DNA from: a virus
Length of the DNA stretch: 24,615 bases
Strand: one strand, 5' to 3'
IMG/VR virus record: IMGVR_UViG_3300023284_000561
Coordinates: 1-24,615 of that record
Of the stretch, positions 3,323 through 9,010 are shown one piece after another (position 1 is the first letter of the stretch; the number at the start of each line of letters is the position of its first letter). The translations under genes were made by a program, and so were the position numbers. Under the pieces are notes generated by a model, which saw nothing but the letters and a program-made list of their open reading frames with translations, had not been told where the DNA came from and made no database searches.

Positions 3323-3709
3323 TTACTCCTCTGGTTTTGGCATAACAATATATCCATGCAAGGTTACGTCAACCTTGAAACAACTTGCCATATCGTCTTC
3401 ATTAACGCGAGTCTCCCATTCTTGAATTCTCAACTCTCTTCCATCCTGTAAGTCAATTACAACTTCAGGTATCGGGGATAACCGATTGTAGGTTTCTGTT
3501 CCATTCTTAAACGTGTGAGGACTTCTCATTTCTCTATCTCCGTTAAGGGGGTTGTGGGTCTCTATCCAGTATAGCCTATTTTCCCGATTATTTTTCTTTC
3601 GAGAAAATTGGTAGTCGGTGTTTTTGCAAGAAAAGTTTTTTTCGGTCTGATATTCGCAGAGCGGTCGTTTTAGCGTTGGATCATCACCGGTTCTCCTACT
3701 AATTCCCAT
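3323..3709 (-). CDS. phage protein with duplicated YNRLSxIPE domain
   Basis: The C-terminal 65 residues share a clear domain with the protein at 6707-7156. Common features are F-(K/R)-x-G-x-x-x-YNRLSxIPE, then IDL(Q/E)DGR and IQEW, then a strand ending in hGYI. In this copy the domain covers about residues 67-124. The first 60 residues are basic, low in hydrophobics and unlike the paralogue. An internal ATG at 3527-3529 has GGAG 8 bases before it and would give a 68-residue protein holding just the shared domain; that start is a serious alternative. The long start overlaps the upstream gene by 40 bases and has only AGGG close to it. The function of the domain is unknown. Confidence 0.55.
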   Translation of the reverse strand: MGISRRTGDDPTLKRPLCEYQTEKNFSCKNTDYQFSRKKNNRENRLYWIETHNPLNGDREMRSPHTFKNGTETYNRLSPIPEVVIDLQDGRELRIQEWETRVNEDDMASCFKVDVTLHGYIVMPKPEE

Positions 3710-4098
3710 TTATCCCTTGTAATGTTTCTAATTGTCAGGTTGAAATTGATTCTTGCCATAGCCCCAAACGAATTTTGAGAGTCAACCCAGCCTCGTACTT
3801 TGTAAGTACCATTAGAAATTTGAGTCACTTGTGTAAGGGGATTTTGATAAGTCCCACTAAAAATACTACCCCAATCTGCTGTTCCAGGGGATTTTAACCT
3901 AGCTTCTATGAGTATTTGAGCTTCTGTCCAAGCAGAAATTTTGACATCATCTTGTAGACGCTTTATATTTTTTGATGATCTTTCTGGATCATTAGAAGTG
4001 CAAGATTTAATAAGAAGAAATAAAACCATGGCCCCAAAACCAGCGTAAATTGTCCATTGAGGTATGGTCTTATTTAAGAGTGATTTTTCGGCAGTCAT
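3670..4098 (-). CDS. membrane-anchored protein with C-terminal beta domain
   Basis: A 142-residue protein. I chose the ATG at 4096-4098 because AAAGGTG lies 5 bases before it; a longer frame exists but runs through the leader hairpins. One membrane segment spans about residues 14-31 (WTIYAGFGAMVLFLLI), followed by a Cys at 33 and a charged linker. The exported or cytoplasmic domain contains ARLKSPGTADWGS, then NGTYKVRGWVDSQNSFGAM and a final WELVGEP. The KSPGTA and GWVDSQNSFGA pattern occurs in small anchored proteins of phages and bacteria, as far as I recall, with no settled function. A surface or superinfection role is only a guess. It lies just downstream of a terminator-like hairpin that could control it. 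Confidence 0.65.
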   Translation of the reverse strand: MTAEKSLLNKTIPQWTIYAGFGAMVLFLLIKSCTSNDPERSSKNIKRLQDDVKISAWTEAQILIEARLKSPGTADWGSIFSGTYQNPLTQVTQISNGTYKVRGWVDSQNSFGAMARINFNLTIRNITRDKWELVGEPVMIQR

Positions 4099-4115: not shown

Positions 4116-4139
4116 AAAAACGGGAGAGTCGCGACTCTC
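4116..4139 (-). terminator. intrinsic terminator hairpin before the membrane-protein gene
   Basis: On the minus strand the perfect 16-base palindrome GAGAGTCGCGACTCTC (4139-4124) folds into a hairpin, followed by CCG and five T (4120-4116). It sits 6 bases upstream of the ribosome binding site of the gene starting at 4098. Read-through or prevention of this hairpin would be needed to express that gene from upstream promoters. Confidence 0.6.
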
Positions 4140-4287
4140 GTCGATGCACTTGGGTTACCACACCCACCTACGAAAACAAAAGAACACGACACTCCCGTAA
4201 GAGTGCTGCTCTTTCAATTCGTAGGTGGTGAAATGAGACCCTCTATAATTGGATGTGACGAGAGTCTCTGTGGTAATTTAGTGCATC
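4116..4287 (-). promoter_or_regulatory. structured leader with mutually exclusive pairings (attenuator candidate)
   Basis: Read on the minus strand, segment order is B, A, C, C', B', A', terminator. B (4287-4270) pairs with B' (4161-4143): GATGCAC with GTGCATC and TTACCAC with GTGGTAA, around an internal loop. A (4266-4257, GACTCTCGTC) pairs perfectly over 10 bases with A' (4142-4133). C (4228-4218) pairs over 11 bases with C' (4174-4164) and encloses another imperfect hairpin with loop near 4195-4200. A' contains the 5' arm of the terminator, so A:A' pairing and the terminator exclude each other. B:B' and A:A' cross, which would make a pseudoknot, though with no linker between B' and A' both full helices probably cannot form at once. 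This is the architecture of an attenuator or riboswitch; no known class is recognised. Confidence 0.5.
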
Positions 4288-4321
4288 ACCGAAAGACGAT
4301 CAGATTATTCCATATTGTTGA

Positions 4322-4453
4322 TTATTGTTTCCTCCTCTTGCTTATTCTTCGTTTGGCCAGTTTCAATAACATTTCTCTGCACCAGGTTACAGGCTTTACT
4401 CCGTCAAACTTTGCTCCCTGCTCAATCATCCTCTTTTCTTCATTAGTTAACCG
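4322..4453 (-). pseudogene. 5'-truncated ribbon-helix-helix-like protein remnant
   Basis: The minus frame encodes 43 residues ending at TAA (4324-4322), with an in-frame TAA directly upstream at 4456-4454 and no convincing start. The peptide RLTNEEKRMIEQGAK, followed by a Gly and TWCREMLLKLAKRR, reads as the strand-helix-helix of Arc/MobC-like ribbon-helix-helix proteins, then a basic tail. The in-frame Met at residue 9 would remove the strand and has no ribosome binding site at useful spacing. The lost start abuts the transposase remnant, so a deletion or insertion at about 4455-4470 probably removed it. Confidence 0.45.
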
Positions 4454-4470
4454 TTAAAGACCCCGATAGT

Positions 4471-4773
4471 GGAGCTTCTCCAAAAAGGACAAAGTTGGTT
4501 GGAGAGTTTGATGCCGATACAATTTCAACCTCCAAGATTGAGCGTTGTAATGGCACTCTCCGCAATTTCGTCCGAAGATGTCACCGAAGAACCTACTGTT
4601 TTCCAAAACGGTTAGACAATTTACAATACGCAATCGCATTGCATTTGATGTATTACAATTTCGTCAGAGTACACAAAACTCTTGGAAGTACACCGGGAAT
4701 GAGAGCAGGAATTATTCCTGTACTCTGGAAGTTTGAGGATATGTTCGATGCTCTTTGTGAAAATCTGTACTAA
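4471..4773 (+). pseudogene. IS1-like transposase, C-terminal remnant
   Basis: The frame from 4471 (after an in-frame TAG at 4468-4470) to TAA at 4771-4773 encodes the last 100 residues of a transposase. Recognisable blocks are SKRTKLVGEF, ADTISTSKIERCNGTLR with the acidic residue of the I-E-R-x-N block, RRTYCFPKRLDN, and HLMYYNFVRVHKTLGSTPGM near the end. These match the C-terminal end of the IS1-family transposases common in bacterial genomes. The N-terminal DNA-binding part and the first catalytic acidic residues are missing and no complete terminal inverted repeats were found. A TTG at 4495 could start a shorter peptide, but it would not be functional. The element is therefore a dead insertion scar. 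Confidence 0.8.
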
Positions 4774-4807: not shown

Positions 4808-4861
4808 TAAAAACTACCTCCGAAAAATGCTAAAAGCCCCCACTACCAGAAAATTCCAAAA

Positions 4862-6444: not shown

Positions 6445-6714
6445 TTAGACTCTCTTAAATGGAGTTTCATCAAAATTCTTAGGCCACATACCTAAATAGG
6501 CAATAGGTTTGTTATGTGACCTATGGGGAAACTGAGCAACACAATTTGAGTATTTAATTGTCTCATCACACATAGCCTCAATTACATAAAAATCATCTAT
6601 TTCTTCATTGTTTGACCCCCTTATAGCCTTAGCCCGAATAGCATTAACCCACATTTTTAATCGTTCAATTTCTATTTCACATTCTTCTAACAATGGCGAT
6701 ACTGATTCATTCAT
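6445..6714 (-). CDS. small helical protein, unknown function
   Basis: An 89-residue protein. Its first half is an acidic helix (SPLLEECEIEIERLKMWVNA, 6-25); the second half contains IEAMCDETIKYSNCVAQFPH and ends in FDETPFKRV. The ATG lies inside the last codons of the preceding gene (8-base overlap), and its stop is 2 bases before the radical SAM start. No domain is recognised. Confidence 0.55.
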   Translation of the reverse strand: MNESVSPLLEECEIEIERLKMWVNAIRAKAIRGSNNEEIDDFYVIEAMCDETIKYSNCVAQFPHRSHNKPIAYLGMWPKNFDETPFKRV

Positions 6715-7156
6715 ATTTATACTCCTCTTTCAATCTAATAAGACCTTCAAATTCTACTTGTAATTTCTTGCGATCATCGTAGTTTACTTCAACTTTTGGA
6801 TTCCATGTTTTAAGTAGAATGATTCTTTCATCCATTTGTAGAGATTTAGGGCAAGGACAAAGACTATTGAAGGCTTCTCTAAGATTTTCAATCTCTCTTT
6901 CCTCCTTTTCTTTTTTGTGAATGTATCCTTTAGTTACTACCTTCAAAAATCCAGTATAATAATTACCCGAAAATGTATTCCATTCTTGTATCTGAAAAAT
7001 TCTACCGTCCTCTAAATCTATCGGGCCTTCGGGGATTATAGACAATCTGTTATAAACATCCCTACCATCCCTAAATAGTTTTGGTCTCTTCGTATTAGAC
7101 ACAGTTCTATAAGTTGTATTTTCTAAACTCGTAATGTCAACAAAGTTTTCATTCAT
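6707..7156 (-). CDS. phage protein with YNRLSxIPE domain (paralogue of 3323-3709)
   Basis: A 149-residue protein whose residues 25-85 share a domain with the protein at 3323-3709: LFRDGRDVYNRLSIIPEGPI, then DLEDGR and IQEW and a strand ending GYI. The rest is different: a charged linker EKEEREIENLREAF, a short NSLCPCPKSLQ segment with a CxC, and a C-terminal part rich in Lys and Glu. The ATG overlaps the stop of the LicD-type gene (ATGA) and has GGAG 8 bases upstream. Function unknown; two diverged copies in one phage suggest the domain binds something common, such as a virion or host component. Confidence 0.6.
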   Translation of the reverse strand: MNENFVDITSLENTTYRTVSNTKRPKLFRDGRDVYNRLSIIPEGPIDLEDGRIFQIQEWNTFSGNYYTGFLKVVTKGYIHKKEKEEREIENLREAFNSLCPCPKSLQMDERIILLKTWNPKVEVNYDDRKKLQVEFEGLIRLKEEYKYE

Positions 7157-7766: not shown

Positions 7767-8414
7767 CTAGGGTTTGACAATATAGAATGACCAGTTTTCT
7801 CCAGTTTCGGGAATAAGGTAAATGTCTATATGAATTTTAAGGGATTTAATAAGTTCAAATAATGCCTTGCGGATATTTCTACCGAAGTCATTGTCTATGG
7901 GTGCTCTAACTTTAGGGTCCAAGACTCCTTTTCTTGTAGTAACAATATCGTGACCAGCTAAAAGCCCTCCAGACTTAACTTTAGGATACCAGAGTTTCAA
8001 ATCTAAAGTTATTCCCGGTAATGAGTGATCTCCATCGACGTAAACGAAATCTAAAGAATTATCTTCAAACTTGGGGGCAGCTTCTTCAGATAACATTTTC
8101 AGTAATTTAATTCTAGGAGCAAATTTTGCAGCTACTTTTTCGGTGAGAGAATAATCCAAATCTCTATCAACTCCCAAGCCTCTTAAACATCTTGATTGTG
8201 CTTCATAACCTTCGGGATTATACCAAGGATCAACGCAGAAAAGTTTTTTACCTTCCCAATAAGGCATAAACTTTTCAACGTACATTCCTCTGTGGGTTCC
8301 TACTTCAACTCCTATGTTTGTTAATTTTTGTTGATTAAGGAGAATTCCTAATTTTTCTCTTCCAACAAATCCAGAGGATAAATAAGTTGGTACTGTAATT
8401 TCATCTGTCGCCAT
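7767..8414 (-). CDS. SAM-dependent methyltransferase (copy 1 of a tandem pair)
   Basis: A 215-residue class I methyltransferase. I start it at the ATG 8412-8414, 2 bases after the upstream stop; a longer frame exists only by using TTG. Motif I is EVGTHRG (37-43), followed by FCVDPWYNPEGYEAQ (59-73), then FVYVDGDHS (about 123-131) and GGLLAGHDIV (about 150-159). These match the Methyltransf_24-like group that often acts on sugars or small O-linked substrates. The neighbour at 8417-9010 is a close paralogue with the same motifs. A role in methylating a glycan made by the cassette is likely but unproven. Confidence 0.8.
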   Translation of the reverse strand: MATDEITVPTYLSSGFVGREKLGILLNQQKLTNIGVEVGTHRGMYVEKFMPYWEGKKLFCVDPWYNPEGYEAQSRCLRGLGVDRDLDYSLTEKVAAKFAPRIKLLKMLSEEAAPKFEDNSLDFVYVDGDHSLPGITLDLKLWYPKVKSGGLLAGHDIVTTRKGVLDPKVRAPIDNDFGRNIRKALFELIKSLKIHIDIYLIPETGENWSFYIVKP

Positions 8415-8416
8415 AA

Positions 8417-9010
8417 TTATTCTTTCACCATAAAATAAGACCAAGGGATAAGTTTTTCTTCAGGTATTATATAGATATTCAAATTGTTAATTGTTGCGAA
8501 GTCTCCTACAGCTTTTCTAATTCCAATTCCCCAATCGTCTTCTCCAGCAGCTCCACTAATAATATCATGCCCCGCGATTATTCCTCCCGGTTTAAGTTTC
8601 TCAAACCAGACATCCAAGTCTAATCGAACGGCATCTTCTCTATGATCCCCATCCAGATAAACAAAATCAAAATAATCGTTATCGAATAAGGCTAGAGCTT
8701 CTACAGATAATTTTCTAATCAAGGTAACTCTTGGTTTGAACCTCTCTGCCATTCTCTTAGACCACTCATAGTCGTCTTCTCTATCCTTTCCGTTGCCTGA
8801 AAGATACTTTGCTTGAGTTTCGTATCCGTCCGGTATTGTCCAAGGATCGACACAGCATAATTCTTTCCCTCCCCAAATTGCTAAAAACTTTTCTGCGAAA
8901 TAACCACGATGAGTACCAATTTCGATAGCTCTGCATTTTAGCTTTCTATCGTTTAAGAGTTTGCCTAGATTTTCTCTTCCGATAAATCCAGCAGAAAGGT
9001 AAGTAATCAT
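8417..9010 (-). CDS. SAM-dependent methyltransferase (copy 2 of a tandem pair)
   Basis: A 197-residue class I methyltransferase with the same architecture as the next gene: start segment TYLSAGFIGRENLGKLL, motif I EIGTHRG (30-36), CCVDPW (52-57), FVYLDGDHRED (near 115-125) and GGIIAGHDI. By eye the two copies agree at roughly half of their positions. The C-terminal end here is shorter and lacks the extra KGVLDPKVRAPIDND segment of the first copy. The ATG overlaps the stop of the DNA methyltransferase gene (ATGA). The tandem pair points to gene duplication and probable use on two positions or two substrates. Confidence 0.8.
   Translation of the reverse strand: MITYLSAGFIGRENLGKLLNDRKLKCRAIEIGTHRGYFAEKFLAIWGGKELCCVDPWTIPDGYETQAKYLSGNGKDREDDYEWSKRMAERFKPRVTLIRKLSVEALALFDNDYFDFVYLDGDHREDAVRLDLDVWFEKLKPGGIIAGHDIISGAAGEDDWGIGIRKAVGDFATINNLNIYIIPEEKLIPWSYFMVKE

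Follow-up and report, generated by a model that had tools for sequence, protein, structure and literature searches.

Between a NikA-like gene remnant (stop codon at 4322) and the gene of a 142-aa membrane protein (ATG at 4098), a 24.6-kb virus record carrying tail and glycan-modification genes contains a spacer crowded with inverted repeats, and the question is whether this spacer encodes an RNA that controls transcription of the gene behind it and, if so, through which pairings. The whole stretch of DNA analyzed (24,615 nucleotides) is called here the window. A preliminary description had proposed an attenuator-like RNA on the minus strand and had judged its repeats to be far beyond chance. 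For the stretch as a whole this judgment was borne out: positions 4301 to 4116 of the minus strand have a minimum free energy of -89.2, compared with -54.6 +/- 4.3 in shuffled sequences (z -8.1, with 0 of 200 shuffles as low), and they rank first among 516 segments drawn from both strands (z -6.7; the next different place reached -4.1). Isolated repeats of 10-11 bp are no rarity in the window, and it is their clustering that is unusual.

The best fold is nested (Table 1). P1 and P2 form a stem that opens into a three-way junction with P3 and P4, after which come a local hairpin, the U-run and, 17 nt farther on, the ATG. The repeats listed in the preliminary description were found again: the 10-base pair 4266-4257/4142-4133 (arms A and A', 10 of 10 pairs), the perfect hairpin before five T, and the 11-base arm that is the base of P4 (11 of 11). 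The pairing of 4287-4270 with 4161-4143 (B and B') exists as well, but it resolves into two 8-bp helices, P1 (4287-4280/4150-4143) and P2 (4276-4269/4162-4155), split by AAA opposite CCCA. The AAA of this internal loop occurs in five members of the family described below and is replaced by other A-rich sequence in two more.

Table 1. Parts of the structured leader RNA and its neighbors in the window (minus-strand features; coordinates in plus-strand numbering)
Feature	Position	Strand	Remarks
Whole structured leader RNA, extended P1 to U-run	4116..4301	-	
P1 5' strand GATGCACT	4280..4287	-	
P1 3' strand AGTGCATC	4143..4150	-	
A-rich internal loop AAA	4277..4279	-	faces CCCA 4151-4154
P2 5' strand TTACCACA	4269..4276	-	
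P2 3' strand TGTGGTAA	4155..4162	-	
P3 hairpin 4268-4260/4243-4235	4235..4268	-	holds arm A of the preliminary description; optional in the family
P4 hairpin	4164..4228	-	base 4228-4218/4174-4164; distal 4216-4207/4186-4177, 4206-4200/4195-4189
PT 5' arm = distal 3' strand of P4	4185..4198	-	complementary to 4133-4120 as well
PT 3' arm	4120..4133	-	extends into first U-run base
Local terminator-like hairpin GAGAGTCG/CGACTCTC	4124..4139	-	8+8 perfect; 3 nt from U-run
U-run TTTTT	4116..4120	-	
Downstream gene, 142-aa single-membrane-span protein	3670..4098	-	phrog_13160; WVDSQNSFG motif
NikA-like ribbon-helix-helix gene remnant	4322..4450	-	weak, 14.3 bits; ends ~20 nt before RNA

Searches of Rfam 15 (4227 families at the gathering score) gave no match for the window or for L085, L086, L087, L089, L095, L099, L101 and L108, in agreement with the earlier statement that no known class is recognized, and permissive Rfam searches of the window region, L080 and L095 returned chance-level matches or none. 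At the DNA level, no sequence similar to the window RNA was found in searches of phages and plasmids. The relatives of the tape-measure, epimerase and membrane proteins were too distant, none of them carried the RNA, and no leader resembling it was found with the relatives of the membrane protein. Exact P4 and P1 patterns gave zero or chance-level matches. A retron, an HDV-like ribozyme and a phi29 pRNA were each considered and rejected, the window having no reverse transcriptase and no Rfam match.

Relatives were obtained with a covariance model built from the window sequence alone (R1), which produced one full-length match in about 890 genomes of three phyla, in the Verrucomicrobiota genome G385 (33.7 bits, E value 8.9e-5 per genome). 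This score by itself is modest. The match shares AAAYTACCAC...GTGTGGTARCC with the window, its P1 is different yet paired, and its U-run is followed by an ATG. The pattern of letters common to the window and G385 led to G931 and G1044, with 0 matches for the reversed control pattern, and a looser pattern, whose reversed control also had 2 matches, led to G1105; R1, which has knowledge of the window sequence only, scores G1105 at 34.9 bits. A similar pattern applied to viral contigs yielded 32 stretches, six of which were kept (L087, L089, L095, L099/L111 and L108). In all six, a U-run follows the core at a distance of 17-29 nt and has strong long-range pairing next to it (PT, described below), and several have P1. 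The remaining pattern hits lack the fold, none having a strong PT and most having no U-run, which is a clean separation. A second covariance model, built from six sequences (R2), recovered L099 (E value 2e-6) and L111 (7e-6), neither of which was used to build it, and weakly L108 (0.012); it missed L087/L089 and L095, whose membership is based on the pattern and PT, plus P1 for L095. G912 (L083, 28 bits) was discarded as a chance hairpin in which P2 is not kept, and L101/L112, L120 and L121 were excluded for a missing U-run or for their coding context. The family consists of 10 sequences in about nine unrelated backgrounds, together with one duplicated copy, and is spread over Verrucomicrobiota genomes and phage contigs. 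The best reading of these comparisons is that the RNA represents a new family of putative conditional-terminator leader RNAs without an entry in Rfam.

Conservation of the helices was assessed by strand permutation among the nine independent members. For P1, the members' own partners give -112.6 against -46.4 +/- 10.5 for permuted partners, with 0 of 20,000 permutations as good, and the own partner ranks first in seven of the nine; L087 and L108 are without P1. Permuting the halves of P4 gave 11 of 20,000. In an alignment of six sequences (A6), 94% of cells are paired compared with 69.5% after shuffling, and 39 of 53 pairs are changed on both sides, figures that lean towards the structure because A6 was fitted to it. 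Since TACCAC and GGTGTGGTARCC served as the search key, their constancy is likewise partly imposed. The second copy in G1105 is the unbiased case. There, a unit of 355 bp that includes about 220 nt upstream of the RNA is duplicated with 86% identity (L122 5055-6483, minus strand), the homology ending just past the U-run and two different genes lying downstream. The RNA parts are 87% identical (18 substitutions in 139) and differ by three compensatory double changes, namely T-A to C-G and C-G to T-A in P2 and G-C to A-T in P4; the search-key letters themselves have changed to TCACTAC/GTAGTGA with their pairs kept. This comparison involves no alignment fitting and is the cleanest covariation evidence. 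P1, P2 and P4 have been kept through compensatory changes, P1 with the two exceptions given above, and the covariation check proposed for B:B' (P1 and P2) gave a positive result, as did the comparison for the 11-base arm.

The distal 3' strand of P4 has a second complement in all members, a stretch of about 14 nt ending at the U-run (PT; -13.6 to -25.7 kcal/mol). PT is present in nine of nine independent members, whose own strands give -182.1 compared with -116.0 +/- 11.7 when permuted (0 of 20,000 as good). In the window it consists of 4198-4192/4126-4120 and 4190-4185/4133-4128, and this repeat (4198-4185/4133-4120, 13 pairs), which the preliminary description did not contain, is the conserved alternative pairing. 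Because one strand serves both, P4 and the long-range terminator compete, and because the PT loop of 38-60 nt encloses the 3' strands of the P4 base, P2 and P1, PT and P1-P2-P4 would be mutually exclusive. As far as the comparison of members goes, it is the distal P4 3' strand, and not A:A', whose competition with the terminator is conserved. The 5' leader is predicted to combine a terminator with a mutually exclusive alternative fold, in the manner of attenuators and riboswitches, and to that extent folding and conservation support what had been proposed. In the P1-P4 fold of G385, L095 and L099, the U-run has no strong local hairpin in front of it, which leaves PT as the sole good terminator stem. 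In the window, G931, G1044 and the first G1105 copy (a), the U-run is preceded by a local hairpin as well, which could terminate in either state. The P1-P4 fold is better than PT by 8-25 kcal/mol in eight of ten members, PT being preferred only by L087/L089, and a switch at equilibrium would in those eight stay in one state.

Six members have a start codon 10-25 nt past the U-run: the window (17 nt), G385 (14), G1044 (11 or 26), L087 (25), L089 (19) and L095 (10 or 40). The distance is 62 nt in G1105 a, 51 nt in G1105 b and 67 nt in L099, and many of these start codons have a Shine-Dalgarno-like sequence. The short gaps leave hardly any room for a promoter, so the gene is probably reached by read-through, except where the RNA itself contains a promoter. 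The genes themselves are varied: a membrane protein in the window, a secreted protein in G385, a lipoprotein in L099, an XRE regulator followed by TerB in G1044, a membrane protein and a secreted protein in G1105, replication genes in L087 and L089, where the RNA stands at the head of the replication operon, and in L095 a gene without assigned function followed by Hsp70. They have no function in common, and in G1105 a relative of the G385 secreted protein (33% identical) is encoded 4.3 kb beyond the RNA. Since the downstream gene varies among members, the supposed link to a membrane-protein gene does not hold as such and is reduced to a link with a gene just downstream. L108, flanked by opposite-strand genes, has no same-strand gene of at least 60 aa just downstream. 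Among the neighbors are a relaxase gene upstream in L095, a zincin metallopeptidase (ArdC-like) gene in G1044 and the NikA-like remnant in the window, which suggests accessory or mobile DNA.

We favor, with a probability slightly above one half (about 0.52), the view that the RNA is the 5' leader of the gene behind it and acts there in cis as a conditional terminator. Transcription would first yield the conserved fold P1-P2-(P3)-P4, which would sequester the distal 3' strand of P4 and let polymerase read through. Where this fold is unmade or opened, the PT strand would pair with the 14 bases ending at the U-run, and the resulting long hairpin abutting the U-run would stop transcription. The balance might be tipped by a ligand, a protein or a translation event. 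Such a terminator would account both for PT having been kept despite changes of letters and for genes starting right after the U-run. Against it stand the greater stability of P1-P4 over PT in eight members, the local hairpins of four members, the lack of a shared function among the downstream genes and the position of L108. A trp-type leader peptide was looked for by eye; the peptides of L087 and L089 differ, and no equivalent was seen in the window, G385, L095 or L099. Short open frames with a Shine-Dalgarno start lie before the RNA in L087 and L089. The L087 frame has its stop codon just after the PT 5' arm, a position that would allow control by the ribosome, and the L089 frame does not fit. 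More tentatively, these RNAs may form a novel switch class that senses a ligand or a factor; carried by phages and by accessory elements in several groups of bacteria, it would respond to a common host signal by permitting read-through past the built-in long-range terminator into the accessory gene that follows.

A rather unlikely alternative, although the most serious one, is a free-standing small RNA with its own intrinsic terminator that acts in trans, its place before genes being incidental. All members end in a U-run, the core is very stable, the downstream genes are varied, L108 lies between opposite-strand genes, and the G1105 unit ends just past the U-run, all of which such an RNA would explain; it would not explain the spacing of only 10-25 nt to the start codon in six members, nor the conservation of PT where a local hairpin would suffice, and no common target or loop sequence was seen among the members.

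It seems improbable that the RNA is a processive antiterminator of the kind of put (HK022), EAR, conAn2 (pLS20) or canT (Tn916), which would modify polymerase to pass terminators. Both put and conAn2 are phage or plasmid RNA elements that relieve termination. The present RNA is found in phages, beside mobilization genes and upstream of a terminator, and the position at the head of the L087/L089 replication operon would also suit this explanation. The put RNA is short and is not known to have a built-in terminator conflict. The conserved PT, however, speaks for a terminator built into the RNA and not for a polymerase that has been modified, and R2 finds no sequence-structure similarity in HK022 or within positions 1-50000 of pLS20. 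Precedents exist in other mobile elements (PMC11658703). Fragments of 341-452 nt were used to study one of them, the canT RNA of conjugative Tn916, which acts processively on unrelated terminators (PMC11658703); set beside it by description, the present RNA would likewise be a cis-acting mobile-element RNA controlling passage through a terminator.

Very improbable is a DNA element, such as a transfer or single-strand origin, a mobile-element end or a REP-like repeat, whose inverted repeats fold as DNA. IS1-like and NikA-like remnants do adjoin the RNA, L095 and G1044 have the relaxase and zincin genes, and G1105 has its duplicated unit, which is without evident terminal repeats. Against this, 53 of 514 pairs in the members' folds are G-U (8 of 65 in the window, where the plus strand would read A-C), the plus strand folds more weakly (-73.5, z -5.5), the U-run exists on one strand only, the window has no second copy, and no target-site duplication was seen. 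The version in which A:A' is the antiterminator is hardly credible, since in spite of its perfect 10-bp complementarity forcing it costs about 16 kcal/mol (-73.6 compared with -89.4), arm A is already used in the local P3, both P3 and A are absent or different in relatives, and the pairing is not kept there.

The conditional terminator that we favor resembles the riboswitches and attenuators with intrinsic terminators in its conserved multi-helix core, in the start codon just downstream, and in the strand that pairs either with an arm of the core or with the strand before the U-run; it differs in having no Rfam class, a P4-to-terminator loop of 38-60 nt and no common gene pathway. Palindromic candidate RNAs of 109-132 bp have been reported from Bacteroidetes of human microbiomes, one of them (HMP_4078) near phage domains (PMC8040213). 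Their likeness to the present RNA is one of description, and identity is neither claimed nor excluded. The present family combines strong comparative support with the lack of an Rfam entry and with a switch that is simple and can be tested. Its confirmation would add a regulatory RNA common to phages and bacterial accessory genes, provide a handle on the signal to which such genes respond, and account for a set of highly structured spacers that precede membrane, secreted and replication genes unrelated to one another.

Several other features of the window were recorded. An IS1-like transposase C-terminal remnant (rve_3/DDE_Tnp_IS1, weak) lies at 4466-4773 on the plus strand, with relatives 38-54% identical in several phyla, and a possible right end, GGTAGTG, near 4846 resembles a terminal repeat found in L044. 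Within the membrane-protein gene, a promoter-like TTGACA-17-TATATT (11 of 12; 3941-3969, plus strand) is aimed antisense through the RNA region. Two proteins without a family match (3323-3709 and 6707-7156, minus strand) share ..YNRLSxIPE..IDLxDGRxxxIQEW.. and are paralogues in the phage. Finally, two neighboring genes for similar methyltransferase-like proteins (7767-9010, minus strand) belong to a row of glycan genes that also includes LicD, radical SAM and epimerase genes.
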